From positions 97,046 through 161,045 of IMG/VR virus record IMGVR_UViG_3300036719_002274: a stretch of DNA of 64,000 nt; one strand, given 5' to 3'. Below are positions 4,659 to 55,953 of this stretch, one piece after another. The notes beneath the pieces were generated by a model. It was not told where the DNA came from and ran no database searches. It saw only the letters and a program-made list of their open reading frames with translations. The position numbers and the translations under genes were made by a program. Numbering within the stretch: the first letter of the stretch is position 1; every line of letters begins with the position of its first letter. This DNA is from a virus.

Positions 4659-4710
4659 TATTGAAGTTGAGTGCATAAGGCATCAAACGTAAAACAAGGT
4701 GAGATTAGTT

Positions 4711-6882
4711 ATGATTCAAAATGAGATTAGAAATGTGATCGAGCGTTCAGATAGTTTTCCAGAAAAGACTTTCCAAATTGAGGCATCAGCAAAAGCTTTT
4801 CGTATTCTGTTTGATGGTTTGTACTCTGACAAGCCCACTGCAATCATGCGTGAATTGGGTTGTAATGCCTATGATGCACATGTCACGGCAGGTAAGGCAG
4901 ACTTTAAGTTTGATGTACATCTTCCTAGTACACTTGAACCATTTTTCATGCTCCGTGACTATGGTATCGGGTTGGCACATGAAGACATTGTGACTATCTA
5001 CACGATCTTGTTCAAATCCACCAAGACTAATTCCAATGACCAAGTTGGATGCCTTGGATTGGGTTCTAAGTCTCCTTTCTCGTACACTGATAACTTCACT
5101 GTTATCTCGTATTTCAATGGTGTCAAGACGGTGTATAACATGTTCTTGAATGAGAATGATATCCCTGCTTACGCAACTTTGTTGACTGAGGAAACCACTG
5201 AACACAATGGACTTGAAATAAGTTTCTCTGTGAAACAGCAGGATATCTATACATTTTATTCCAAAGCACGAAGTACCTATACCTACTTCAAGACGAAACC
5301 CAATTTCATTGGACGTACCTGCGACATTCCCGAAGTGACCTACATTCAGAAACGTGATGGTAAGTGGGGTTTGCGTGATGCTGATAGTTGGGGTAATGCC
5401 AATGCAGTTATGGGTAATGTTGCTTATAGCATGGGTGGAGCCGACTTTGATACGCTTACGACAGAAGAAAAGGCTATCTTGAAGTTGAATATCGATATCT
5501 TTTTCAATATCGGTGAATTGGATGTTGCCGCTAGTCGTGAAAAACTTTCATACAACACACAAACCAAGAAAAACATTAAGGATAAACTAACTCTTATTGT
5601 TAAAGAGTTGGCAGAAGAACTTAATAATGAGATTGCCAACTGCAAAAGTCTTTGGGATGCTAAGATTTTGTTGCATGAATTGACCAGTGGTTCCATGAAA
5701 GTTTTCCGTAATATTGTGGAAAATATTTCCGTCACATTCAATGGTGAACCTGTCGGTAAAGAGGAAATTTGTTTCGGTGAGACAGATTATCATTCATTCA
5801 ATGTTACTTCACATCTTTTCACGAAAACTAGACGTTCTAATCGTGATCGTTATGGCTTCAATACGCTTCATTATCTTGTTGCTACAAAGTCACAGAAATT
5901 CTTTGCAGGTGATACCACAAAGAATGTTAAAGCACGTATTACCAAGTACATACAGGAACAGAAAGCTTTGGGTGTGGAAAAGGTTATCGTAAATCTTATT
6001 CACTCTGCTCACCCTGATTTACTTAACGAAGCTGTTAAAGCGTTCAAAGTTAAAATTGGTATGGCAGATGATGTTGTGATTACGCCTGTCAGTGAGTTAC
6101 CTTTTGATAAGGTTGTGCGTTGCTCTAGTCAGTCTAGCGGTGGTGGTGTGTATAACTATAAGAATACCAAGAAGATTTTCAAGTATGTTGGTGGTGGTTA
6201 TAGCGATGGTGACAATTGGGAAGTGGCTGAACCAGAGTTAGATGATGGTGGTGTCTATGTTATCATTAACCGATATCGCATTGACGGTGAGAAGGCACAA
6301 AGCTACCTTGACGAATATGTAAATTTATTCGAAAAGATTAGTGATGAACCTGTCACGATCTATGGTATCAAGTCGAATGAGTATTCAGCTACTTTTGCAC
6401 CTTTGACCAATTGGGTTCCGTTGAAGACCTATACGGAAACTTTGGTTAAGGATTATATCAAAGACAATGAACTTGAAGAGATTGTGAATATCAGTAAGGC
6501 GTATAATAGTGATTCCGTGAAGTGTACGACTGATTTGAATGGTTATCACAATCAAACTGCTCAAAACCGAACATACTTCGAAACTTACATTGATTCACTT
6601 AAAAATCTTGTAAAGTATAAAGATAATATCGAAACGATTCTTGAACTTTTTACGAATAAAGAAATTATTCCTTTCTTGACACCGTATGTAACGCTTGACA
6701 TTGATAAGATTGGTAAGTATCGTGAAACGTTCAAAAGTATGTTTGAAAGTATCGAGATGGATTTCCCAATGATTCGTTTTGCGGATAACTTCAATGCCAA
6801 TGGTTTACAGATTGTGAAAGACTATATTGAAATAATGATTAAAAATTCAGGAATGCTTATTGACAATCCTGCGGTAGCGTGA
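4711..6882 (+). CDS. rIIA: rIIA-like GHKL ATPase-domain protein, 723 aa
   Basis: The N-terminal region has the GHKL (Hsp90/histidine kinase/MutL) ATP-binding signature: N-box MRELGCNAYDAH, then RDYGIGLAHEDI (DxGxG) and GCLGLGSKSPFSY (GxG lid). That order and the size match phage T4 rIIA and its relatives, membrane-associated proteins affecting lysis timing and superinfection or Rex-type exclusion. The downstream neighbour is rIIB-like, which supports the call. ATG 4711 is chosen over GTG 4699 because AAGGTGAG lies at correct spacing. The C-terminal two thirds have no recognisable domain. Confidence 0.85.
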   Translation: MIQNEIRNVIERSDSFPEKTFQIEASAKAFRILFDGLYSDKPTAIMRELGCNAYDAHVTAGKADFKFDVHLPSTLEPFFMLRDYGIGLAHEDIVTIYTILFKSTKTNSNDQVGCLGLGSKSPFSYTDNFTVISYFNGVKTVYNMFLNENDIPAYATLLTEETTEHNGLEISFSVKQQDIYTFYSKARSTYTYFKTKPNFIGRTCDIPEVTYIQKRDGKWGLRDADSWGNANAVMGNVAYSMGGADFDTLTTEEKAILKLNIDIFFNIGELDVAASREKLSYNTQTKKNIKDKLTLIVKELAEELNNEIANCKSLWDAKILLHELTSGSMKVFRNIVENISVTFNGEPVGKEEICFGETDYHSFNVTSHLFTKTRRSNRDRYGFNTLHYLVATKSQKFFAGDTTKNVKARITKYIQEQKALGVEKVIVNLIHSAHPDLLNEAVKAFKVKIGMADDVVITPVSELPFDKVVRCSSQSSGGGVYNYKNTKKIFKYVGGGYSDGDNWEVAEPELDDGGVYVIINRYRIDGEKAQSYLDEYVNLFEKISDEPVTIYGIKSNEYSATFAPLTNWVPLKTYTETLVKDYIKDNELEEIVNISKAYNSDSVKCTTDLNGYHNQTAQNRTYFETYIDSLKNLVKYKDNIETILELFTNKEIIPFLTPYVTLDIDKIGKYRETFKSMFESIEMDFPMIRFADNFNANGLQIVKDYIEIMIKNSGMLIDNPAVA

Positions 6883-6929
6883 TAAAGTATTAGTAACGAG
6901 TGAGACAATAATAACAAAGGAGAATGAAA

Positions 6930-8012
6930 ATGCAAACAGTTGGTTCTATGATTAGTGGCAGTGGTAAGATTACGATCATCATTGGTTCAAAGGTTTATAC
7001 CGTTGAAACCGATCATGTATCATATCAGGACATCCTTGGTGCGCTTCGTACTAAAGATTATTCTGAATTGGAAAACCTTTTGGAAGTGGGTAAGCAGATT
7101 AATAAGTTTGGTGAAGGTAAAGTGCAGGTTATCGATGGGATCATTTATTATGATTCTATGCCCGTACATTCGGCTTTGACTAATCGTATCATCTCTTTGA
7201 TGAACCAGAAGATGCCTTTTGCACCTATGGTTAAGTTCTTTGAGAATCTTATGCTTAATCCGAGCAAGAATACTTGCGATCAAATTTACACGTTCTTGGA
7301 GTTTAATGCACTCCCTATCTGTGAAGATGGTTGTTTCTTCGCTTACAAGCGTGTGACGGAAGAGTTCAAAGACTTTTTTAGTGGTAAATTTGATAACAGC
7401 GTTGGTGCAGTTGTCAAGATGCCTCGTAACCAGTGTAACGATGATATGCACGTTACGTGTTCTACGGGTTTGCATGTGTGTTCAAAAGATTATCTTCCCT
7501 ACTATCAGGGTGGTCAGGGTCGAATGATTATTGTTAAAATTAATCCGAAGGATGTGGTTGCTGTTCCTGTGGATTATAAGAACACCAAGATGCGTTGCTG
7601 TGAGTATACGGTTGTGGCAGAAATTCCTAAGACTATTGAGGAACCTAATAGCAAGGAATACTTCACTGCTCCCTTGTACACTGCAAAGGGTGAAGTCGCT
7701 CAAGCTGTAACGAAAGTTAATAGTCCTGTGGAAGGTGCTGATCCGTATGAACTTGGTAGTGATGCCTTTGATCGTGGTGTGGATGATGATATGAATCCTT
7801 ACGAATTTGGTACGGATGATTATGATACGTGGTTTGAAGGTTATCAAGACGCAGAAAACGATTGTTCTGCTTATGACGAGGAAGAAGATGAAGAAGATGA
7901 TGGTGGCGAGGATACACAAGGTGAGATTGAGTTTGATCGTTCCAAGTCCGATAGTGTTGTGACTACTTATCACAACGTGCGTGATAGTAAGGGTCGTTTC
8001 GTTAGTCGCTAA
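6930..8012 (+). CDS. rIIB: rIIB-like protein, 360 aa
   Basis: ATG at 6930 sits 7 nt after AGGAG; an upstream ATG at 6924 is too close. The core has rIIB hallmarks: LEFNALPICEDGCFFAYKRV, DNSVGAVVKMPRNQ, and STGLHVCSKDYL, a domain shared by rIIB proteins of T4-like and other large phages. The tail (about residues 250-345) is unusually acidic, with a run of Glu/Asp near 320-340, then a basic end (RDSKGRFVSR). It is paired with the rIIA-like gene 47 nt upstream and followed by a hairpin terminator. Molecular function is unknown even in T4. Confidence 0.85.
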   Translation: MQTVGSMISGSGKITIIIGSKVYTVETDHVSYQDILGALRTKDYSELENLLEVGKQINKFGEGKVQVIDGIIYYDSMPVHSALTNRIISLMNQKMPFAPMVKFFENLMLNPSKNTCDQIYTFLEFNALPICEDGCFFAYKRVTEEFKDFFSGKFDNSVGAVVKMPRNQCNDDMHVTCSTGLHVCSKDYLPYYQGGQGRMIIVKINPKDVVAVPVDYKNTKMRCCEYTVVAEIPKTIEEPNSKEYFTAPLYTAKGEVAQAVTKVNSPVEGADPYELGSDAFDRGVDDDMNPYEFGTDDYDTWFEGYQDAENDCSAYDEEEDEEDDGGEDTQGEIEFDRSKSDSVVTTYHNVRDSKGRFVSR

Positions 8013-14002: not shown

Positions 14003-15136
14003 ATGAGTGAGAGAAAATTAGCAAGTATTCAGAAAATTATTGATGTTAAAGCCATTGACGGTGCTGATAAAATCGAACTAGCCTTTGTCAAGGGTTGGCA
14101 AGTTGTTGTGGCTAAGAAGGATGGATTCAAGATTGGTGATTTAGTCGTCTATATCGAAATTGATTCACTAGTACCTGATCGTCCTGAATTTGAATTCCTT
14201 CGTGAGCGTAAGTTCCGTGTAAGAACTATCAAGCTTCGTAAACAGCTTTCACAAGGTCTTATCGTTCCTATTGATACTATTTCTAATTTACGTCATGCTC
14301 TAATTTCATTAAAGACTATTGAAGAGGGTGATGATGTTACAGCACTTATGGGTATCACTAAGTATGATCCACAGGCACAGGAAGAGAAAGCTCTTAGCGT
14401 CCCTAAACACCAGAACAAGGTGCTTAGATACCTTATGAACTTCAAAGCCTTTAGAACGGTTTACTTAAAATTAAATCAAAAGGAGAACGGTTGGCCTGTC
14501 GGTGTTGTCTCTAAGACTGATGAAGAGAATATCCAGAATATGTACAATGTCATTTCTGAGAACTTTGAGAAGAGTTTTTATGTGACTGAGAAGTTAGAGG
14601 GACAGAGTGCGACATTCTATACCACGTTTGAGAAACATTGGGGTTTCAATCGTAAGGTGTTTGGTGTATGCTCTCGTAATATCAAACTTGAGAAACCTGA
14701 CAACTCTAAGTACTGGCAGACCGCAAAGCGATATGATCTTGAGAAGGTTTTAAAGTCTTACAAGTGCCGTGTTGCTATTCAGGGTGAGCAAGTAGGTGAG
14801 GGTATTCAGGGTAATATCTATAAACTTACTGGTGTTGATCTATTTGTATTCAACGTGTATATGGATGGTAAACGTTTAGGTGTAGATGAATTGAAGGCAT
14901 TTTGTGATAAGCATGGTTTAACGACTGTGCCTGTACTTGATGCAAACTTCGTTCCTTCTAAAGAAATAGTTTGCAATACCAAGGATGTTATTGTACATTA
15001 CTTACTTGGATACAGTAATGGGACATCTGTGTTATACAAGACTATGCGTGAGGGTGTTGTTTTACGATTAAATGAGAATCCTAGCGTATCAGTCAAGGCA
15101 CGTAGTCCTGATTACTTAATTAAACATGAGGAATAA
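14003..15136 (+). CDS. RNA ligase, DRB0094-like, 377 aa
   Basis: An N-terminal OB-like domain (IQKIIDVKAIDGADKIELA) precedes a nucleotidyltransferase core. Motif I is EKLEG with Lys197 as the presumed adenylylation site. Later motifs are visible: VCSRN (III), AIQGEQVGEGIQ (IIIa/IV region), MREGVVLRL (IV) and VKARS (V). N-terminal OB plus ligase core is characteristic of the Deinococcus DraRnl/DRB0094 family, which seals nicks in RNA with 3'-OH/5'-PO4 ends. Strong AGGAG site. It fits an RNA-repair role with the kinase, RtcB and KptA genes downstream. Confidence 0.87.
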   Translation: MSERKLASIQKIIDVKAIDGADKIELAFVKGWQVVVAKKDGFKIGDLVVYIEIDSLVPDRPEFEFLRERKFRVRTIKLRKQLSQGLIVPIDTISNLRHALISLKTIEEGDDVTALMGITKYDPQAQEEKALSVPKHQNKVLRYLMNFKAFRTVYLKLNQKENGWPVGVVSKTDEENIQNMYNVISENFEKSFYVTEKLEGQSATFYTTFEKHWGFNRKVFGVCSRNIKLEKPDNSKYWQTAKRYDLEKVLKSYKCRVAIQGEQVGEGIQGNIYKLTGVDLFVFNVYMDGKRLGVDELKAFCDKHGLTTVPVLDANFVPSKEIVCNTKDVIVHYLLGYSNGTSVLYKTMREGVVLRLNENPSVSVKARSPDYLIKHEE

Positions 15137-24673: not shown

Positions 24674-25864
24674 ATGAAAGAGATTAAAGGACAATTTAAT
24701 ACTGCGAAGGTGTTTGCATCAACAGTCGAACCTTCTTGTGAAGCACAAATTTTAGAGTTATGTAATGAAGAATGGGTATATAACTCTAAAATACGCATTA
24801 TGGCAGACTGTCATTCTGGTAAGGGATGTGTTATTGGTACTACTATGACAATTATTGATAAAATTGTTCCTAATTTAACCGGGGTTGATATCGGATGTGG
24901 GGTTCTTGTGACTAAATTTGATACGCTTTCTTTAACCTTGGAACAGGTTGACTCAATTGTTAAGCGTAACATCCCTATGGGTATGAATTCTCGTCAGTCT
25001 ATGGTGGTTGACTTTACTCCTGAATTGGATAAGGCTATCTGTAAGGAAGCTTTTGATCCTCGTCAGGTTTGTAAGTCCATTGGTTCGTTGGGTGGTGGAA
25101 ACCACTTTATCGAAATTGATAAGGACGATGAGGGTAATTTTTATTTAGTCGTACATACGGGTTCTCGTAACTTTGGTAAGCGTGTTGCTGAACATTACCA
25201 GAACAAGGCTGTTGATTATCATTCCAAGAAGGGTTTGAAGTCTACTCAAGAAATCATTAACGAGTTGAAAGCCAAGGGGTTACAACACATGATTCCTGCT
25301 GAATTGAAGAAACGTAATGCCGTGGCTAACGAAGCTTTGACCTATTTGGAAGGTGACTTGTTTGATTGTTACTTAAACGATATGCATATTGCTCAGAAGA
25401 TGGCAAGTGAGAACCGTAAGGCTATTGCAGATATCTTGTGCCGTACAATGCATATTAAGCCTACTGAACAATTTGAAACGATTCATAACTACATTGATGT
25501 TCATGCTATGATTTTGCGTAAAGGTGCTATCTCTGCGAAAGCGGGTGAAGTGTGCTTAATTCCTATCAATATGCGTGATGGTTCGTTAATCTGTGTTGGT
25601 AAGGGTAACGAAGATTATAACTATTCTGCGCCTCATGGTGCAGGTCGTTTAATGTCTCGTAAACAGGCGAAGCGTGAATTGTCTTTGGAAGGGTTCAAGG
25701 ATACGATGAAGGATATTTATTCATCTACGGTGGGTGCGTCTACGTTGGACGAAGCACCTGATGCTTACAAGCCTATTGCTGAAATCTTGGAGAACATTCA
25801 GGATACGGTTACGGTGTTGAAGCAGATCAAGCCTATTTACAATGTGAAAGCGGAAGAGGAATAA
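24674..25864 (+). CDS. rtcB: RtcB RNA-splicing ligase, 396 aa
   Basis: Family hallmarks are present in order: ADCHSGKG, VDIGCGV (metal site), GSLGGGNHFIE, HTGSRNFGKRV, and SAPHGAGRLMSR with His321 as presumed guanylylation site. Length is close to the usual 400-480 aa. RtcB joins 2',3'-cyclic phosphate or 3'-phosphate RNA ends to 5'-OH ends with GTP and Mn2+, repairing tRNAs cut by anticodon nucleases. No archease gene is evident. Transcribed from a leaderless promoter. Confidence 0.93.
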   Translation: MKEIKGQFNTAKVFASTVEPSCEAQILELCNEEWVYNSKIRIMADCHSGKGCVIGTTMTIIDKIVPNLTGVDIGCGVLVTKFDTLSLTLEQVDSIVKRNIPMGMNSRQSMVVDFTPELDKAICKEAFDPRQVCKSIGSLGGGNHFIEIDKDDEGNFYLVVHTGSRNFGKRVAEHYQNKAVDYHSKKGLKSTQEIINELKAKGLQHMIPAELKKRNAVANEALTYLEGDLFDCYLNDMHIAQKMASENRKAIADILCRTMHIKPTEQFETIHNYIDVHAMILRKGAISAKAGEVCLIPINMRDGSLICVGKGNEDYNYSAPHGAGRLMSRKQAKRELSLEGFKDTMKDIYSSTVGASTLDEAPDAYKPIAEILENIQDTVTVLKQIKPIYNVKAEEE

Positions 25865-33706: not shown

Positions 33707-34615
33707 ATGAAGAAAGTAGAGAAACCTACCGAGGATATCGGAATTGTGATAGGGCGTTTTCAGGTGCATGAACTCCATTCTGCACATTTAGATTTAATTC
33801 AAAGTGTTTGCAATGAACATGAGAAAGTTATTATCTTTCTTGGATTAAGTCCTTTAATGGTTACATCAAATAACCCTTTAGACTTTGAATCCCGTAAACA
33901 AATGATTTTAGAGAGTTTTCCAAAAGTTATTGTAATGTATATTAAAGATAATCCATCTGATGAAGTTTGGTCTAAAGATTTAGATGAAAAAATCCGAGAT
34001 TTAGCAAGTCCTACGCAATCCGTTGTCCTATACGGAAGTAGAGATTCTTTCATTACACATTATTCTGGTAAGTATCGTACACAAGAATTGATGCAGGAAA
34101 CTTATATTTCTGGTTCTGAAATTCGTAAGAATATTTCAAAGAAGGTTAAATCTTCTGCGGATTTCCGAGCAGGGGTGATTTGGGCTTCTGGAAATCGTTT
34201 TCCTACCTGTTTTCCTTGTGTTGATATCGCTATCTTCAATGAAGATTATAGTAAGATTCTATTAGCTAGGAAGGCTAAAGAAACACTCTACCGCTTTGTA
34301 GGAGGCTTCGCAGACCCTAAATCAGACTGTTACGAGACTGATGCCCGTAGAGAGGTTCAAGAGGAAACTGGACTCGAAATTGGGGATTTGAAATATCTTG
34401 GTAGTACTATTATCAACGATTTTCGTTACAGACGAGAAATAGATAAAGTCAAAACACTATTTTTTGTTGGAAAAATCTTATTTGGTCGTCCAGAAGCGAA
34501 TGATGATATCTGTGAAGTCAAATTCTTTGATATTGACAAGCTAACGGCTACTGATATGATTCCTGAACATAAGCCATTATTTGATATGTTACAAAAATAT
34601 TTGAAGAAATCTTAA
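33707..34615 (+). CDS. nadM: bifunctional NMN adenylyltransferase/Nudix hydrolase, 302 aa
   Basis: N-terminal nucleotidyltransferase: IGRFQVHELHSAHLDLI is the GRFQxxxxGH-type motif (here HSAH in place of HxGH), and SGSEIRKNIS is the ISGTxIR counterpart. C-terminal Nudix domain: GGFADPKSDCYE then ARREVQEETGLE, the Nudix box (about residues 200-225). This fusion makes NAD+ from NMN and ATP and hydrolyses ADP-ribose-type nucleotides. NadV follows 245 nt downstream, completing a nicotinamide-to-NAD+ route. Confidence 0.9.
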   Translation: MKKVEKPTEDIGIVIGRFQVHELHSAHLDLIQSVCNEHEKVIIFLGLSPLMVTSNNPLDFESRKQMILESFPKVIVMYIKDNPSDEVWSKDLDEKIRDLASPTQSVVLYGSRDSFITHYSGKYRTQELMQETYISGSEIRKNISKKVKSSADFRAGVIWASGNRFPTCFPCVDIAIFNEDYSKILLARKAKETLYRFVGGFADPKSDCYETDARREVQEETGLEIGDLKYLGSTIINDFRYRREIDKVKTLFFVGKILFGRPEANDDICEVKFFDIDKLTATDMIPEHKPLFDMLQKYLKKS

Positions 34616-34616
34616 A

Positions 34617-34808
34617 ATGAACGACTTATTTGAAAAAGAGCCAATATGCTTTGAAAGTCCTGAAAAGAATGTATGGAAATATATTTTCCACTTTAAAGTG
34701 GCTATAGCGGAAGCAGTATTATACCGTTATAACTCTTTTGAAGATAGGACAGTTCTTTGCGTTTCGGTTTCTAGTGGCTGTAGCGTTGGATTTTTTAGAG
34801 GGTTGTAA
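34617..34808 (+). CDS. hypothetical protein, 63 aa
   Basis: Starts 1 nt after the NadM stop. A small hydrophobic-aromatic protein (VWKYIFHFKVAIAEAVLY) with C-terminal SSGCSVGFF. It has no clear domain; a short AT-rich gap follows before NadV. Function unknown. Confidence 0.6.
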   Translation: MNDLFEKEPICFESPEKNVWKYIFHFKVAIAEAVLYRYNSFEDRTVLCVSVSSGCSVGFFRGL

Positions 34809-34861
34809 GTTATATTTGAAACGAAGAGAAGAATTGAAAAAAGCATTGAAAGGATAAAATT

Positions 34862-36241
34862 ATGGAAAACAACATTATTACATTGACTGATAGTTATAAA
34901 TTTACGCATTTTCAACAGTATCCCAAAGGTACGGAATACATTTACTCATACTTTGAGTCTCGTAATGGAGCCAAGTACAACAAGACTGTGTTTTTCGGTT
35001 TGCAATATTACCTTAAAGCATACTTGCAGGGTACGGTAGTTACTCGTAAGGGTATCGAAAGTGCCGCAAAACTTTGTAAGGCTCACTTTGGTACTGAAAA
35101 GAATTTTAATCGTGAGATGTGGGAATACATACTTGAGAAGTATGATGGGAAGCTACCTATCAGCATCAAGGCAGTACCAGAAGGTACTCCTGTATCAGTT
35201 TCAAACGTTCTTATGACGGTTGTTAATACTGATCCTAAGTGTGCGCCTTTGACGAATCATTTGGAAACATTATTGTCTCAGATTTGGGGAGCTTCGACTG
35301 TCGCAAGTCTTTCCTATGAGACATATAAATTGATTGAATTTTATCGTGATCGCACAGGAACACGTAATGGAATTAAGTTTGGTTTACATGATTTTGGATT
35401 CAGGGGTGTTAGCTCTGTAGAATCTGCTGGTGTGCTTGGTGCAGGACATTTGCTAAATTTTCTTGGTACTGATACCGTAAAGGCTATGGAAGTGGCAATG
35501 GAATACTACAATGCACCACTAGACGGATTGGCATATTCAGTCCCGGCTACTGAACATTCGGTCATGACAGCTAGGGGTAAAGAAGGCGAAGAACAAGTTT
35601 TTGCTGAATTACTTGGTACATATCCAGAAGGTATCTTGAGTGTGGTTATCGATTCTTACGACTATAAGAACTTTGTAAATGTAATTGTTCGTAAGTATAA
35701 GGATGTGATTCTTGCTCGTAATGGTAAGCTTGTTTTACGCCCAGATTCGGGCGATCCCACATCTGTAACAATTGATGTGTTTAATATGGTTGCGGATATC
35801 TTTGGAACAACTAAAAATGACAAAGGTTATAAGGAATTACACCCAAAACTTGGTGTTCTATGGGGTGACGGTATTGATTATGCGGGTATCCGTAGCATCT
35901 TATTCAGTTTGAGTAATAATATGTACTCTACTGATAGTCAAGTTTTTGGTCAAGGTGGAGGCTTACTACAAAAGATCGACAGGGATTTTCAGCGTTTTGC
36001 ATTTAAATCTTCTGCACAATGCCGTGAGGGTGTATGGTACGATATCTTTAAAAATCCTTTGGAAGTTAGTAAGGTTTCCAAGAAAGGTAAGTTGAAACTC
36101 ATTAAAGATGAAAAGGGTGATTTTCATACTGTTGGATTAAGTGATCCTCGTCCTGACGAATTAGTTGAAGTGTTTCGTGATGGTGAAATCCTTAAAGAAT
36201 ATACCTTTGACGAAGTTCGTAAGAATGTTGGAACTTGGTGA
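34862..36241 (+). CDS. nadV: nicotinamide phosphoribosyltransferase, 459 aa
   Basis: Complete NAMPT/NadV: LTDSYKFTHFQQYP near the N-terminus, YSYFESRNGAKY, then KFGLHDFGFRGVSS, VPATEHSVMT, SVVIDSYDY, LVLRPDSGDP and LWGDGIDY. These motifs bind nicotinamide and PRPP. It converts nicotinamide + PRPP to NMN, which NadM adenylates. The pair matches the NARP2-type NAD+ reconstitution pathway described in phages that counter NAD+-depleting defences. GGATAAAATT site. Confidence 0.94.
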   Translation: MENNIITLTDSYKFTHFQQYPKGTEYIYSYFESRNGAKYNKTVFFGLQYYLKAYLQGTVVTRKGIESAAKLCKAHFGTEKNFNREMWEYILEKYDGKLPISIKAVPEGTPVSVSNVLMTVVNTDPKCAPLTNHLETLLSQIWGASTVASLSYETYKLIEFYRDRTGTRNGIKFGLHDFGFRGVSSVESAGVLGAGHLLNFLGTDTVKAMEVAMEYYNAPLDGLAYSVPATEHSVMTARGKEGEEQVFAELLGTYPEGILSVVIDSYDYKNFVNVIVRKYKDVILARNGKLVLRPDSGDPTSVTIDVFNMVADIFGTTKNDKGYKELHPKLGVLWGDGIDYAGIRSILFSLSNNMYSTDSQVFGQGGGLLQKIDRDFQRFAFKSSAQCREGVWYDIFKNPLEVSKVSKKGKLKLIKDEKGDFHTVGLSDPRPDELVEVFRDGEILKEYTFDEVRKNVGTW

Positions 36242-38381: not shown

Positions 38382-38659
38382 AAACTTGGGAAACACGTTT
38401 GAAAGAAGCGGTTCAAAATAAACGCTTTACCAAAGAAGATGTCAAAGAAGCGCAATTGTGGACTACTGATCCTATCTCCGAAATTAAAGATAAGATAGAA
38501 CTTAAAAACAATGACATTAAATTTGGCCCGAAAGATATCTACCTAATCTTAGATGGAATCTTCTTTACCAAAGGTGTCGAAGAGAATGATGTAGCGTTAG
38601 CAGAGGCTTGTTACAAGGGAATTCATAAAAGAGTTGAAAAACTTTACAAAACAGTTTGA
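38378..38659 (+). CDS. hypothetical protein, 93 aa
   Basis: A small Lys/Glu-rich helical protein (WETRLKEAVQNKRFTKEDV), ending TYKTV-like. The stop TGA lies in the -35 box of the radical SAM promoter, so it ends this transcription unit. No family recognised. Confidence 0.7.
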   Translation: MKTWETRLKEAVQNKRFTKEDVKEAQLWTTDPISEIKDKIELKNNDIKFGPKDIYLILDGIFFTKGVEENDVALAEACYKGIHKRVEKLYKTV

Positions 38660-38684
38660 CATTTAATAACGAAAAGGGTAATCT
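38656..38684 (+). promoter_or_regulatory. promoter of radical SAM/tag-protein operon
   Basis: TTGACA (38656-38661), 17-nt spacer, TAATCT (38679-38684), 7 nt to ATG 38692. It is one of the clearest leaderless-class promoters and starts the most unusual operon of the window. Confidence 0.8.
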
Positions 38685-38691
38685 ATTACAC

Positions 38692-39753
38692 ATGAAAGTA
38701 TACAACACAGACAAACTACGAATTTGCAAAAGCGAAGATTATAACTACGTTTTTGACAAGACAAACGGATTCTTCGCTCGTTGGGGTAAAACGAAAGAAG
38801 ACGATCCTCAGTTCGCACCGATGCCTGAAATCCTTGATATCGAAGTGACTACCATTTGTTATGGTGTGCCACATATTGATAAAGAGGGTAAACCTACTCC
38901 CCGTATCCCTTGTAAATTCTGTTACAAGTCAAATACATCGAATGGTGTCAATATGCCTTTCTCCAATTTCAAGATCATCCTTGATAAGATGCCTTGGTTG
39001 CTTCAAGTAGCCTTTGGTGCTGATTCAGAGTGTTCTTCAAATCCTGATATCTGGAAAATGATGGGTTACTGCCGTGAGAAGGGTGTCGTGCCTAATATCA
39101 CTGTAGCTAATATTACTGACGAAACTGCTGACAATTTGAAGAAATATTGTGGGGCTGTTGCTGTCTCTCGTTATGATAATAAAAACCTCTGCTATGATTC
39201 TGTCAAGAAATTAACGGATCGTGGTATGGAACAGATTAATATTCACATTTTGGTGTCTGATAACACCTATGATATGGTTATGGAAACTCTTAAAGACCGA
39301 TTGACCGACAAGCGACTTGAAAAGCTTAATGCCATCGTACTCTTGAACTTGAAACAAAAAGGTCGTGGTGAGGCGTATAACACCCTTACTGATGATAAAT
39401 TCAAGGTGCTTGTAGACTTTGCGTTTGATAATAAGATTACTATTGGGTTTGATTCATGTGGTTGCAACAAGTTTCTACGTGTAATCAAGGATTATCCTAA
39501 TTTTAAAGAAATGGAAATGGTGTCGGAACCTTGTGAGTCAAGTTTATTCAGTTCGTACATTGATGCTAACGGAGATTTCTATCCTTGTAGCTTCTGTGAG
39601 GGACATTGCAAAGGTTGCTTGTCTTGGGAAACTGGTTTAAGCGTGTTGAAGGCTGATGATTTCCTCAAGGATATCTGGCATAATGAGAAGACAAAAATTT
39701 TTAGGGACGTACTTTTGAAAAATGGTCGTAATTGCCCTATGTATAATGTGTAA
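38692..39753 (+). CDS. radical SAM/SPASM-like enzyme, 353 aa
   Basis: The 4Fe-4S motif is expanded: Cys56 (TTICYG), then Cys74 and Cys77 (PCKFCYKS), i.e. C-x17-C-x2-C rather than C-x3-C-x2-C. The C-terminal third has an auxiliary cluster pattern: Cys256/Cys258 (DSCGCNK), Cys281 (SEPCESS), Cys299/302/306/309 (PCSFCEGHCKGC) and Cys348. SPASM-like enzymes modify peptides. ATG 38692 is preferred because the earlier frame start lies in the promoter. Immediately followed by five proteins with the same N-terminal tag, which are candidate substrates. Confidence 0.78.
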   Translation: MKVYNTDKLRICKSEDYNYVFDKTNGFFARWGKTKEDDPQFAPMPEILDIEVTTICYGVPHIDKEGKPTPRIPCKFCYKSNTSNGVNMPFSNFKIILDKMPWLLQVAFGADSECSSNPDIWKMMGYCREKGVVPNITVANITDETADNLKKYCGAVAVSRYDNKNLCYDSVKKLTDRGMEQINIHILVSDNTYDMVMETLKDRLTDKRLEKLNAIVLLNLKQKGRGEAYNTLTDDKFKVLVDFAFDNKITIGFDSCGCNKFLRVIKDYPNFKEMEMVSEPCESSLFSSYIDANGDFYPCSFCEGHCKGCLSWETGLSVLKADDFLKDIWHNEKTKIFRDVLLKNGRNCPMYNV

Positions 39754-39761
39754 GGAGTAGT

Positions 39762-40106
39762 ATGAAAATTCGAAGTGGATTTGTAAGTAATAGTTCAAGT
39801 AGTTCATTCATCGTACAGGCATGTGATGTAGAACGTGCTAAAAGTATGGGTTTAACACTCATTTCAGTTAAAACTCTTAAAGAGTATAATAAAAAGCTTA
39901 CAGAACTTGAAAACTCTAAAGCTGAGATTATGAAGGATGTGCCTAGTTTTCTTGGTGGTGGATATAATTATTATGGATCACAAATTGATATCTTAGGTAT
40001 TGATAATTTGGATGATGCAGATTTCATTTCGGAGCCGTATGACCGTGATGAGGCGTATAGAAGTGGTATGGATGATTATTTTAGCACATTTTTGAGTGAC
40101 TTGTAA
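39762..40106 (+). CDS. tag protein 1 (MKIRSGFVSNSSSSSF), 114 aa
   Basis: Starts 8 nt after the radical SAM stop with AAGGAGTAGT. Opens with the shared tag MKIRSGFVSNSSSSSFIV. The body is helical then Gly/Tyr-rich (LGGGYNYYGSQIDILG) and acidic. No resemblance to the other four bodies. Short, ribosomal, no signal peptide. Candidate substrate or partner of the radical SAM enzyme. Confidence 0.85.
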   Translation: MKIRSGFVSNSSSSSFIVQACDVERAKSMGLTLISVKTLKEYNKKLTELENSKAEIMKDVPSFLGGGYNYYGSQIDILGIDNLDDADFISEPYDRDEAYRSGMDDYFSTFLSDL

Positions 40107-40114
40107 GGAGATTT

Positions 40115-40924
40115 ATGAAAATTAGAAACGGATTTGTGAGTAACAGTAGTTCTAGTAGCTTTGTGGTAGTATTACCTAAAAAGCCTGAATACTGTCAACA
40201 AGTTTATGAAATGTTATTCAATAGTAAGAAAGAGATAATCAAAGAAGAGTATTTAGGTGAATTGGATACTCATCAAATTTCAGAACTCGTATATAGGGAT
40301 TTAGTCAATACTAAATTCAAGAGAGCTACGGTTCAAGAGGTTGCTGACTTATTTTCTGCACGTTATCATTATTGGATCAACGCTAATAGTCTCATGATGG
40401 ATAATAAGGTCGTTGATAAAGACGGTGGAACCTTTTACTGTGCATCCAATAATTTTTGGGGTACTGATAAGAAGTTATTAGAATTATACAAACAATCCGT
40501 TATCAAATGTGACAAAAACTCCAAAATGATTCAGAAACGTGCTAACGAAGTTGAAAAGAATGCACCGAATCGTGTTGAATATGCTTATAAAGACGGAAAG
40601 AATTATAAGGACGTACCTTATACTGATACCCAAATTAAAGCCTATAAGAAATACGAAAAAGAACTTGACTTTTATCAGAAAAATGATAAAGTTTACAAAG
40701 ATTTTATCAAATGGAGAGATAAGATTCATAGGTCTGATTGGGACTTGGAGCATAAATATCGCCATGCGTTAGCTAAAGTAGATGCCAAAGCATTTTTGAA
40801 GGCGTACAAGGGTAAGTTTGTATTCACTACATCTTATTCAGATAATGATGGTTCAATTGGAGCCTTGATGGAGCATGGAAATATTTTTAGAAATGTCGAG
40901 CATGAGCGTATTAGTATGCATTAA
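40115..40924 (+). CDS. tag protein 2 (MKIRNGFVSNSSSSSF), 269 aa
   Basis: The longest of the five. Tag at residues 1-16, then a Lys/Tyr-rich helical body (MIQKRANEVEKNAPNRVEY; KYEKELDFYQKNDKVY), ending ERISMH. Site AAGGAGATT. No catalytic motif seen. The tag differs in codons but not residues from its neighbours, suggesting selection on the peptide. Confidence 0.85.
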   Translation: MKIRNGFVSNSSSSSFVVVLPKKPEYCQQVYEMLFNSKKEIIKEEYLGELDTHQISELVYRDLVNTKFKRATVQEVADLFSARYHYWINANSLMMDNKVVDKDGGTFYCASNNFWGTDKKLLELYKQSVIKCDKNSKMIQKRANEVEKNAPNRVEYAYKDGKNYKDVPYTDTQIKAYKKYEKELDFYQKNDKVYKDFIKWRDKIHRSDWDLEHKYRHALAKVDAKAFLKAYKGKFVFTTSYSDNDGSIGALMEHGNIFRNVEHERISMH

Positions 40925-40935
40925 GAAAGGAAATT

Positions 40936-41235
40936 ATGAAAATTAGACAAGGATTTGTAAGTAACAGTTCTAGCAGTTCGTTCTGCATCTATGGTGCGTA
41001 CCTTGGTGAAGATCGTGATGAAGCAGAAGCTATTGAAGCGAAGATTGGTGAACTTGGATTAAAATTAGAGGTTCATTATGGGGAGTATACTCGATGTGTT
41101 GGACGCTCATGGTGTTCTATCGGAAATGATGAAACTGGTAAAGCATTCAAGGATGGTATTGATGAAGCTGTAACGAAACTTGGTCTTGATGCCAAAAAGA
41201 CCACTACAATCGAAGAGTCTTGGTATAACGGTTAA
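40936..41235 (+). CDS. tag protein 3 (MKIRQGFVSNSSSSSF), 99 aa
   Basis: Tag with Gln at position 5. Body is an alpha/beta domain with an acidic helix (GEDRDEAEAIEAKIGEL) and Cys/Trp-containing centre (YTRCVGRSWCSIGND). Site AAGAAAGGAAATT. Unlike its neighbours otherwise. Function unknown. Confidence 0.85.
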   Translation: MKIRQGFVSNSSSSSFCIYGAYLGEDRDEAEAIEAKIGELGLKLEVHYGEYTRCVGRSWCSIGNDETGKAFKDGIDEAVTKLGLDAKKTTTIEESWYNG

Positions 41236-41244
41236 GGAGAAATT

Positions 41245-41622
41245 ATGAAAATTAGAAACGGATTTGTGAGTAATAGTAGTTCAAGTAGTTTTTGTATCTT
41301 TGGTGTCGAGTTGACCGAAAAGGAATACAAAGCACTTATAGCAAAAGAAATTGCTGCAATGAAAGAAGAAGAGGGTGAAGATTTTGATGAAGAAAGTTGC
41401 GATATCCAAGATATGCTTTCAGAATGCGCCTATATTAAAAAGAATAAGTTAGATATAGTATCAACGTCCTTGGATGGTGTCAGTCTTTGTATTGGATTAG
41501 ATTTATCAGATTCTTCATTAAAAGGTGAAAAACTTATTATTGAACTTACCAGAATTCATAATATTTTAAATCGTGATTATTCCCATGAGGTAGAAATCTT
41601 TTCGGGTGAGACTTATAATTAA
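41245..41622 (+). CDS. tag protein 4 (MKIRNGFVSNSSSSSF), 125 aa
   Basis: Tag followed by CIFGVELTEKEYKAL, then an acidic helical domain (AAMKEEEGEDFDEES) and a beta half. Three cysteines follow the tag (C17, and CDIQDMLSECAY). Site AAGGAGAAATT. Function unknown. Confidence 0.85.
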   Translation: MKIRNGFVSNSSSSSFCIFGVELTEKEYKALIAKEIAAMKEEEGEDFDEESCDIQDMLSECAYIKKNKLDIVSTSLDGVSLCIGLDLSDSSLKGEKLIIELTRIHNILNRDYSHEVEIFSGETYN

Positions 41623-41631
41623 GGAATAAAT

Positions 41632-41964
41632 ATGAAAATTAGAAACGGTTTTGTAAGTAATAGTAGCAGTTCTTCATTTATTTGTTCAGTCTGTGGTGAA
41701 TCTGAAACATATTATGATGGGCTTGAAGAAGCGGGTGCAATACAGTGTGAAGGTCAATGGCATATTTTCCACGAGGATTGTGTCAAGAAATTTGATCTTG
41801 AATTTACGGAAGACCGTAATTATGGTAAATGTGTGACAAGAGCTAGTTGTCCTATTTGTAATCTTTCGGTTCTTCCAGACAGTGACGAGTTGACATTCTT
41901 ACGTGAAAAGTATAAGATGTCTAAAGATGAGATTCTAACAGAGTTACGTAAAACGAAAGGTTAA
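41632..41964 (+). CDS. tag protein 5 with zinc-finger body (MKIRNGFVSNSSSSSF), 110 aa
   Basis: Tag, then ICSVCGES, CEGQWHIFHEDCVKKF and ASCPICN: a CxxC/H/C/CxxC pattern like a small RING- or treble-clef-type zinc domain. Site AAGGAATAAAT. It ends the tag array; the DUF3307-like membrane protein follows 1 nt later. Confidence 0.85.
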   Translation: MKIRNGFVSNSSSSSFICSVCGESETYYDGLEEAGAIQCEGQWHIFHEDCVKKFDLEFTEDRNYGKCVTRASCPICNLSVLPDSDELTFLREKYKMSKDEILTELRKTKG

Positions 41965-41965
41965 T

Positions 41966-42310
41966 ATGAGTTTTGTACTAATCAGTTGGGTATTATTTCT
42001 ACATTTTGTATTTGACTTTATGTGTCAAACCGACAAGATGGCAATTAATAAGAGTAAGTCGTTTAAATGGCTTTTTACACATACCAGTGTATACAGTCTT
42101 ATGGCTTTTCTCGTGGGATTACCTTTTCCATTAGCTATAGGATTCTACTTATACCTCTTTGTTACTCATAGTATCATTGATGGTATCACCTCACGTATAA
42201 CTTCATACTTGTGGGTGAAAGAACAGCGTCATTGGTTCTTTGTAACGATTGGATTTGACCAGTGGTTGCATTATGTGACAATCTTCTGGTTCTTGAGTAA
42301 AGTCATATGA
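41966..42310 (+). CDS. DUF3307-like membrane protein, 114 aa
   Basis: Four hydrophobic helices with HFVFDFMCQTDKMA and KWLFTHTSVYSLMA, THSIIDGITS matching the DUF3307 pattern (HxxxDFxxQ, H..Y). Phage homologues exist in large genomes. A small integral inner-membrane protein of unknown job. It follows the tag array directly and may belong to that operon. Confidence 0.75.
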   Translation: MSFVLISWVLFLHFVFDFMCQTDKMAINKSKSFKWLFTHTSVYSLMAFLVGLPFPLAIGFYLYLFVTHSIIDGITSRITSYLWVKEQRHWFFVTIGFDQWLHYVTIFWFLSKVI

Positions 42311-51777: not shown

Positions 51778-51806
51778 TTGACTTGTATAACAAAATCCAC
51801 TATTAT
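51778..51806 (+). promoter_or_regulatory. promoter of CCA-adding-like gene
   Basis: TTGACT (51778-51783), 17-nt spacer, TATTAT (51801-51806). ATG 51821 is 14 nt later; no ribosome site visible. Confidence 0.72.
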
Positions 51807-51820
51807 TGCTAAATATTGAT

Positions 51821-53281
51821 ATGAACACTTTTAACAAACTTTACAACTCTTTGACAGAAGCAGAAATTCGCCAGAAATTGGATAATTTTGAAGGAATCCT
51901 TCACACTAATCCGGATTTAGCTACTGCTATGGAATTATGCAAAGAAATTGAAGCCCTTGAACCTAATGCAGAAGCTTTGGTCGTAGGTGGTTCAGTTCGT
52001 GATTTAATTCTCAAAAAAGCCCCTAAAGATATCGATATTGCTACAAATGTTGATATTGAGAAGATTGCCACACACTTTCATAGTGCTGATATTGGCAAAT
52101 CTAAGGATTTTGGTATCGTAGCTGTCCAATACAAGGGTCAAATCTTTGAAGTAGCTCATTACAGAGAGGATGTTTACACTGGAACGACTGATTCTAGACA
52201 TCCTTCTGGAGTAAATTTAACTAAATCCTTTGAAGCTGACAGTGAACGTAGAGATATTACGATTAATTCGTTAGGTTTGACTACTTCTGGTGAAATCGTG
52301 GATTATCAGGGTGGACTTGAAGACATCAAGAATGGCATCATAAAGGCTGTTGGTAGCCCCAAGGATCGATTTATTGAGGATGCCCTACGCATGATGAGGG
52401 TTGGGCGTTTTATGGCTAGATATGGCTTTAAACTCGATCCTGAGACTAGACAGGCTATTATTGATTTAAAAGACCTTATTAAGAAGGTTTCCCCTGAACG
52501 TATTCGTGATGAATTGTTCAAATCTGCCTCTTCTGGTACAGCTTTGGCTAATTATATTGAACATTTAAAAGACGTTGGACTTTTAGCATTAATTTTACCT
52601 GAAATTGATATTATGGACAAGTACGAGCATACACCTGAAAGTCACCCCGAAGGTGGAGTATTTGCACATACTATTCAAGCTATCAGAAAAAGCCCTAGTA
52701 AGAATCCAATTACAAACATGGCTATCTTATTTCATGATATTGGTAAACCTGCTTCTCAAAGCTTTGATATTGATACGCATAACGTCAAATATCATGGACA
52801 CGATAAGGTTGGTAGTGAAGTCTTTGATAAGGTTGTAAAGCGTTTAAAGTTTACTAACGATCAACGTGACGCTATTTTATTTGCCATTGAGAATCACATG
52901 TTAGCACATCACATGACTGACATGAAGAAGTCACGAATTTTGGATATTCGTCAAAGTCCTCATTGGGAAACACTTAAAGATACAACTTACGCTGATGATG
53001 CGGCTAGAGGTGATAGATTTGATGCAAATGCCTATGCTGACAAGATGAATAAAGTTGAAGACATTGCCAGTAAGTTTGGTGAGAAACAAGCTTTTGAAAA
53101 GCGTATGTCTGGTTACGTAGATGGTCGAATGATTATGAATATCCTTCCTAAGATTAAAGGAACGGATATTGGAGTCATTAAAAATGCTGTACGTGAGTGG
53201 ATTATTTCAAAGGACTTTAATGTACAACCAGAAGAGGTTACAGAATACATTAAAGAATTAGGGAAAAGTCTTAATCTTTAA
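51821..53281 (+). CDS. tRNA nucleotidyltransferase/poly(A) polymerase-like protein with HD domain, 486 aa
   Basis: Class II nucleotidyltransferase head: VGGSVRDLILKKAPKDIDIA (GGSxRD; DxD at Asp70 and Asp72). Neck with ALRMMRVGRFMARYG and RRD-like elements, then an HD domain (FAHTIQAI, LFHDIGKP, YHGHDKVG). This layout is bacterial CCA-adding enzyme with HD tail. It would add CCA to tRNAs; HD may be a phosphohydrolase. TTG at 51806 rejected as promoter sequence. Confidence 0.87.
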   Translation: MNTFNKLYNSLTEAEIRQKLDNFEGILHTNPDLATAMELCKEIEALEPNAEALVVGGSVRDLILKKAPKDIDIATNVDIEKIATHFHSADIGKSKDFGIVAVQYKGQIFEVAHYREDVYTGTTDSRHPSGVNLTKSFEADSERRDITINSLGLTTSGEIVDYQGGLEDIKNGIIKAVGSPKDRFIEDALRMMRVGRFMARYGFKLDPETRQAIIDLKDLIKKVSPERIRDELFKSASSGTALANYIEHLKDVGLLALILPEIDIMDKYEHTPESHPEGGVFAHTIQAIRKSPSKNPITNMAILFHDIGKPASQSFDIDTHNVKYHGHDKVGSEVFDKVVKRLKFTNDQRDAILFAIENHMLAHHMTDMKKSRILDIRQSPHWETLKDTTYADDAARGDRFDANAYADKMNKVEDIASKFGEKQAFEKRMSGYVDGRMIMNILPKIKGTDIGVIKNAVREWIISKDFNVQPEEVTEYIKELGKSLNL

Positions 53282-55074: not shown

Positions 55075-55953
55075 TTAAGTTTTTATGCAATATTTGATAA
55101 CAGCATAAGGTTGTAGGTTGTTATGTGCCACACTTCCACCTTGGGATGCAATTCCTACTGAAACAGAGCCACTATAGGAATGGGTGTGGGAATCACCAGT
55201 AGTTGCAATTTCACTTGAATTAAAAGAACTACCAGCCGAAGTTCCTCTTTTAGTATTAGAAGAAACGTTATCACCACCTGCACCACCACTATCAGTCGTT
55301 CCACTAAAAGAACCACTTGCGGCACCACCATGATTATGTGATGGTATTTCTGTTACACCTAATGTATGTGTATTTTCACCACCTGTTTTAGCAATGGCAT
55401 TAAACTCAGTTTGGGATGCGTCATATTGCACTAATGTTTTACCATTAAGATTTGGAACATTGAATGTGTTTATATCAACATTACCCCAAGTTGTTCCTAT
55501 GGCTAAAAAGAGTGTGTTATAAGTAGTCCTACTCAGAGAGCTACCATCACAAGATATCCAGCCTACGGGTGCTGTAGCCATTGCAAACGGCATTATAGCA
55601 CCAGCAGGTACATAATTGGCACCAGATAACGTTATAATATTACCCGACATTGTATTAACTTCTGTGGATAAAGTAATAACATTAGAGGATAACGTACTAA
55701 CATTGGATGTAAGTATATTAAAATCCGTTAAATTAGTTTTACCATCCAACTTATCTTTCAAATCTAATTGATAGTCAATATTACCACCAACGATATTACC
55801 CCATTTTGTAAAACTTGTTGCACTAGTAGGCCATGTTGTAACCGTGGAACCATTAAGCGTCAATTTACCAATATTATCACTAAACCCATTTATAATTAAT
55901 TCTTGATGATAAGTTTTTTGTCTAAATTGTGTTTGTTTATTGTTAATATCCAT
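55075..55953 (-). CDS. tail collar-domain protein, 292 aa
   Basis: A short coiled coil (SNVSTLSSNVITLSTEV) precedes a phage tail-collar domain: GAIMPFAMATAPVGWISCDG, PNLNGKTLVQYDA, IPSHNHGGAASG. The rest is Gly/Ser-rich and ends in LQPYAVIKYCI. This family forms short tail fibres or collar and binds receptors. Neighbours are tail genes. Confidence 0.88.
   Translation of the reverse strand: MDINNKQTQFRQKTYHQELIINGFSDNIGKLTLNGSTVTTWPTSATSFTKWGNIVGGNIDYQLDLKDKLDGKTNLTDFNILTSNVSTLSSNVITLSTEVNTMSGNIITLSGANYVPAGAIMPFAMATAPVGWISCDGSSLSRTTYNTLFLAIGTTWGNVDINTFNVPNLNGKTLVQYDASQTEFNAIAKTGGENTHTLGVTEIPSHNHGGAASGSFSGTTDSGGAGGDNVSSNTKRGTSAGSSFNSSEIATTGDSHTHSYSGSVSVGIASQGGSVAHNNLQPYAVIKYCIKT

Follow-up and report, generated by a model that had tools for sequence, protein, structure and literature searches.

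The window, a 64,000-nucleotide stretch of viral DNA, contains a gene for a radical SAM enzyme with a SPASM-like C-terminal region, followed on the same strand by five genes whose products share their N-terminus. The enzyme (352 aa; positions 38695-39753, plus strand) is identified by its match to phrog_7293 (1.6e-108; function given as unknown in the PHROGs annotation), its score against the SPASM model PF13186, and its cysteine pattern. Its reading frame is open from a TTG at 38656, and the ATG at 38695 is the more likely start. The tagged proteins, all encoded on the plus strand, are W1 (114 aa; 39762-40106), which starts MKIRSGFVSNSSSSSFIV and matches phrog_7397 (4.1e-6); W2 (269 aa; 40115-40924), starting MKIRNGFVSNSSSSSFVV; W3 (99 aa; 40936-41235), starting MKIRQGFVSNSSSSSFCI; W4 (125 aa; 41245-41622), starting MKIRNGFVSNSSSSSFCI; and W5 (110 aa; 41632-41964), which starts MKIRNGFVSNSSSSSFICSVCG and has a Cys/His zinc-finger-like body. 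From the enzyme through W5, the genes are separated by 8, 8, 11, 9, and 9 nt, and a Shine-Dalgarno-like AAGGA or AAGGAG lies in every one of these gaps. An earlier note on this DNA had described a radical SAM gene and five consecutive, closely spaced ORFs starting MKIRxGFVSNSSSSSF (x = S, N, Q, N, N), one with a zinc-finger body. ORF coordinates and translations confirm this arrangement, the five lengths, and the close spacing, measured here as 8-11 nt.

Around this locus, a DUF3307 membrane protein is encoded at 41966-42310, one nucleotide 3' of the last tagged gene. Upstream, inspection of the translations by eye points to a possible NAD salvage pair in the region 33707-36241, where an ORF resembling both nucleotidyltransferases and Nudix proteins precedes a nicotinamide phosphoribosyltransferase-like ORF. 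PHROGs matches to rIIA, rIIB, RNA ligase, RtcB-type ligase, tRNA nucleotidyltransferase, and tail-fibre genes are spread over 4699-8012, 14003-15136, 24674-25864, 51806-53281, and 55075-55953; this is a T4-like gene set.

The tag is found exactly five times across the 161-kb record and not once in 150 codon-shuffled frames. Pairwise comparison of the five window tags gives 108 base differences, 93 of them in synonymous codons, and serine codons swap between AGY and TCN at equal positions. Thus, the tag is conserved at the protein level and under selection, and is no recent DNA repeat. A chance or low-complexity artefact is ruled out by the codon shuffles together with the synonymous divergence, an RNA or DNA element by the AGY/TCN switching, and a recent gene duplication by the five bodies belonging to five sequence groups. 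The shared element does not stop at residue 16, as the earlier note had it, but reaches approximately residue 18, with two hydrophobic residues after F16.

Across 451 distinct tagged proteins, the tag phenylalanine is at residue 7 in 444. The core N10-S11-S12 is essentially invariant, a constancy partly built in since the search patterns demanded these residues, while S13, S14, and S15 accept T, A, C, and others. Exceptions in the core are rare (SNSRSSSF in locus L189). A scan near the enzyme anchored on residues 2-8 alone recovers 240 tags that have the full core and 17 that do not; the variation is at positions 13-16, and the opposite strand gave none. Cysteine is absent from the five window tags and rare at S13 and S14 in others. 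For KP27-type tagged proteins, the tryptic tag peptide is SGFVSNSSSSSFIVR, with a monoisotopic mass of 1559.76 Da by hand calculation.

The window enzyme scores 21.4 bits against PF13186, just below the curated cut-off of 21.5, and a Pfam profile search gives no Radical_SAM match; its bacterial homologues pass both models. Among 114 aligned homologues (75 viral, 39 bacterial), the cysteines of the SAM cluster (C55, C73, and C76) are conserved at 0.95-1.00 and those of an auxiliary cluster (C255, C280, C298, and C347) at 0.99-1.00. The cluster motif of the window enzyme is C-x17-C-x2-C, widened relative to the canonical C-x3-C-x2-C. All 39 bacterial homologues have the canonical spacing, whereas the phage spacing ranges from x3 to x17. 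Cysteines of the second auxiliary cluster (AuxII) are conserved at 1.00 in bacteria versus 0.04-0.08 in phages, and the window enzyme has no such cluster.

Cultured-phage records with a homologue at approximately 46% identity number 173 and are mostly from Slopekvirus- or Pseudotevenvirus-type phages of Klebsiella, Enterobacter, Cronobacter, and Citrobacter. Homologues at approximately 31% identity are found on seven plasmids of Agrobacterium, Rhodobacter, and Rhizobium. The tree splits cleanly into bacterial-type and phage-type enzymes. In three viral contigs (L132, L134, and L136), the enzyme falls in the bacterial clade and stands beside a bacterial-type tagged protein; these are possibly proviruses carrying the bacterial operon described below, read as a defence operon. 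In a 180.5-kb record (L108/G021), the enzyme matches as two overlapping pieces near the C-terminus, suggesting a frameshift or sequencing error. A 248-kb contig (G012) encodes an enzyme identical to that of the window and has two more tagged genes at 47.7-48.0 kb, on the opposite strand and far from the enzyme.

Enzyme and tag co-occur in both directions. Enzyme loci were gathered without use of the tag, 43 from bacteria and 75 from viruses. The strict tag pattern lies within approximately 8 kb on the same strand in 60 of the 75 viral loci, and 12 of the remaining 15 contigs have the tag or a near-variant somewhere along their length (72/75 in total); the three enzyme contigs without it are fragments of 14.7, 24.6, and 38.5 kb. 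In bacteria, 39 of 43 loci have a strict-pattern tagged gene immediately before that of the enzyme, and one further locus (L049) adds the variant DYVTNSSSTSY. Conversely, a DNA pattern scan for the tag alone returned at least 120 viral stretches. Among the matches listed, the enzyme is present in 36 of 50 tag-picked contigs and in 18 of 33 further ones (six repeats removed). Where these contigs reach at least 150 kb, again among the matches listed, 29 of 37 encode the enzyme; the other eight, without a detectable enzyme, are all linear records that may be incomplete. Other radical SAM proteins are present in some of the tagged contigs that lack the enzyme. Each of 20 whole bacterial genomes with the enzyme contains exactly one tag. 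Moreover, across 399 Flavobacteriaceae genomes the tag occurs in three, and the enzyme in the same three, adjacent and approximately 0.4 kb apart; two of these were known beforehand and one is new. The association of tag and radical SAM gene expected by the earlier note is therefore found from either side; a predominance of tagged proteins lacking the enzyme, the opposite outcome, was sought but not encountered. The idea of one enzyme serving several cargos is supported as well. In each of phages KP27 and GAP161, two tagged genes lie approximately 20 kb away from the enzyme gene, and there are five in Vibrio phage D479. The tag can thus act in trans, distant from the enzyme, as in KP27-like phages. 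The clean split of the enzyme tree indicates that the enzyme-tag link has survived divergence to approximately 31% identity. Judged from these sequence comparisons, the pairing is real and old.

The bodies of the 451 tagged proteins form about 125 sequence groups. W5 belongs to group 1 (48 members), W3 to group 3 (33), and W2 to group 4 (30), while W1 and W4 have no blast relative within the tagged-protein set. Tagged proteins from KP27/RB43-like phages are additional matches to the C-terminus of W2; for W5, a tblastn search of cultured phages gave no hit. In AlphaFold2 models of two unrelated tagged proteins, the tag has a pLDDT below 50 and the body is confidently folded, so the tag is predicted to be a disordered tail ahead of a folded body. 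The W3 model combines a disordered tag with a ferredoxin-like beta-alpha-beta-beta-alpha-beta body, as judged from the order of elements and weak fold matches. Fold searches with two tagged-protein models gave nothing below E = 0.001 in the PDB or, for W3, in a viral structure library. Most apparently untagged matches to the bodies are cut by the locus end or carry tag variants; two have decayed tags. One homologue with a decayed tag (L254) shares its contig with the enzyme. Another locus (L198, on contig G028, where the enzyme was not found) has a decayed-tag paralogue (MKIEPSSFVV) near an intact tagged gene, and L146 (contig G004, enzyme likewise not found) appears near-identical to that contig.

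In bacteria, the enzyme, at approximately 31% identity to the phage form, closes a four-gene operon whose order is fixed in nearly all loci: an NLR-like STAND ATPase, a small untagged protein, the tagged protein, and the enzyme. The ATPases have an invariant GQGKTN P-loop. A NACHT domain is recognized in 12 of 36, and the N-terminal domains are swappable, with a SMEK nuclease in 20 of 36 and a nucleoside-phosphorylase-like domain in two. By hhalign (97.7%), the small untagged protein and the body of the tagged one are remotely homologous, so the tail can be separated from the fold. Neighbouring genes include Septu, HerA, SIR2, and MzaA components as well as transposase genes; these occurrences are anecdotal and suggest a defence-island setting. 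In contrast to the bacterial operon, phages hold only the enzyme and the tagged proteins.

The operon ATPase resembles Avs2/AVAST and other NLR-like (STAND/NACHT) ATPases in its GQGKTN P-loop, its swappable N-terminal domains, and an Avs2-like similarity in PADLOC. However, it is shorter than Avs2, has three partner genes including the enzyme, and scores far under the curated cut-off (55.6 and 69.5 bits versus 1000), so that it is not Avs2 itself. Radical SAM effector genes also occur in vWA-MoxR FtsH ternary conflict systems (PMC7159879). Their ATPase core differs from that of the operon, and the passage on them mentions neither a shared N-terminal tail nor a phage version.

The closest curated families to the enzyme are peptide or cofactor maturases, among them mycofactocin maturase, PqqE, PapB, and the KxxxW maturase. 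All named NCBIfam equivalogs stay under their curated cut-offs, the best being mycofactocin maturase at 69 bits versus 265, and viperin is rejected at 37.6 bits versus 180. With SPASM maturases, the enzyme shares the radical SAM barrel, the auxiliary-cluster cysteines, and adjoining genes with a common conserved peptide. It differs from them in that the phage forms lack the second auxiliary cluster and have the widened cluster motif, and in that it would act on the tails of folded proteins instead of on short precursor peptides. It would be a radical SAM maturase with a dedicated substrate, set apart by a tail that many folded proteins bear and by the occurrence of the same pair in phages and in an NLR-like operon. 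Sactipeptide or ranthipeptide thioether maturation does not fit, since the five window tags have no cysteine. In anaerobic sulfatase-maturating enzymes, a catalytic-base aspartate directly follows an auxiliary-cluster cysteine. Here, Ser299 follows C298 (the same residue in more than 92% of homologues) and the substrate motif of those enzymes is absent, which argues against formylglycine formation. A glycyl radical motif (RxG[FY]V) is dismissed as well, since Asp occupies residue 6, where the motif needs an invariant glycine, in 42 of 43 bacterial tags. By eye, and in sequence only, F7-V8-S9 fits the aromatic-X-X motif of cyclophanes (triceptides).

We propose that enzyme and tag are a dedicated enzyme-substrate pair in which the enzyme would bind the tail and oxidatively modify it, and assign this reading a probability of about 0.62. 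The first 16-18 residues would form a flexible N-terminal tail recognized by the enzyme, whose SAM-cleaving iron-sulfur cluster would carry out the reaction together with one auxiliary cluster. The modification may lie in or beside N10-S11-S12, for example as an oxidized serine or a side-chain cross-link to a neighbouring phenylalanine. The retained cluster and auxiliary cysteines, the co-occurrence, the conserved and predicted disordered tail, the Radical_SAM and SPASM matches of the bacterial enzymes, and the maturases as nearest curated families count in favour of an enzyme acting on the tail. Counted against it are the failure of the window enzyme to match the Radical_SAM model and its score just under the SPASM cut-off, the large contigs without the enzyme, the search bias and exceptions at N10/S11/S12, and the decayed tags. 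The tag as recognition or modification element, as suggested in the earlier note, remains the best reading for a conserved, predicted disordered segment on about 125 kinds of body; the modification, its site, and its biological purpose are what we infer.

A near-invariant disordered tail, diverse bodies, and strict co-occurrence would fit equally well if the tag were a docking tail that binds the enzyme and is not its substrate, with the tagged proteins as adaptors whose bodies recognize different targets. This is unlikely in our estimate: the N-S-S core is rich in Ser and Asn and offers few strong binding side chains, bacteria have one tagged protein per enzyme, leaving nothing to choose among, and no targets are known. 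SPASM enzymes commonly act on leader-bearing peptides, and the nearest curated models are maturases of such peptides; RiPPs likewise combine a constant N-terminus with variable sequence behind it. The tail could accordingly be a recognition leader only, with the modification in the bodies. We consider this improbable, as the bodies are predicted folded domains in about 125 groups with no evident common acceptor motif, and an RRE domain is not detected in the window or bacterial enzymes, in which Pfam gives only radical SAM and SPASM regions. The ordinary leader-peptide RiPP that the earlier note had invoked as precedent is not supported, since no leader-binding domain is detected and the cargos are folded proteins mostly of 100-250 aa; viral tagged proteins have a median of 134 aa and two predicted bodies are folded, which does not fit a short precursor of leader and core. 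Finally, the tail could serve targeting, processing, or assembly independently of the enzyme, the two genes merely travelling together; tags that lie approximately 20 kb from the enzyme, or on some large contigs without it, would fit this. Two-way co-occurrence in viruses and in unrelated bacteria with different neighbours, adjacency in the bacterial cases examined, and a link that persists at approximately 31% enzyme identity make this highly improbable.

No Pfam or NCBIfam family covers the enzyme-tag pair, and we found no literature on it in open-licence PMC papers. The string SNSSSSSF is absent from the open-licence PMC literature searched, where papers with similar short strings are probably unrelated. 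PHROG families 7293 (the enzyme) and 7397 (which matches the tag) comprise the same proteins, both listed as of unknown function, and no link between them or to bacterial operons was found.

Under the proposed tail modification, the tail would be a portable module on many small folded bodies, by which one enzyme marks a whole phage protein set. In bacteria, the pair would supply the single marked protein of the operon centred on the STAND ATPase, probably an anti-phage defence system in which the marked protein and its untagged paralogue may be sensor or adaptor subunits. More tentatively, and with the odds against it, phages might mark and deploy: one enzyme would put a new mark on a variable set of small proteins, that mark would also serve bacteria in an NLR-like immune operon, and the phage tagged proteins may be decoys or the bacterial one bait. 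Enzyme and tagged proteins are encoded by cultured phages, including relatives of the E. coli phage RB43 type, which makes the system directly testable. If the proposed modification is right, it would be a protein modification that reaches many unrelated phage proteins through one tail and would offer a shared handle on hundreds of uncharacterized phage proteins, and bacteria would possess an undescribed NLR-like operon encoding both a radical SAM enzyme and the protein it probably acts on.
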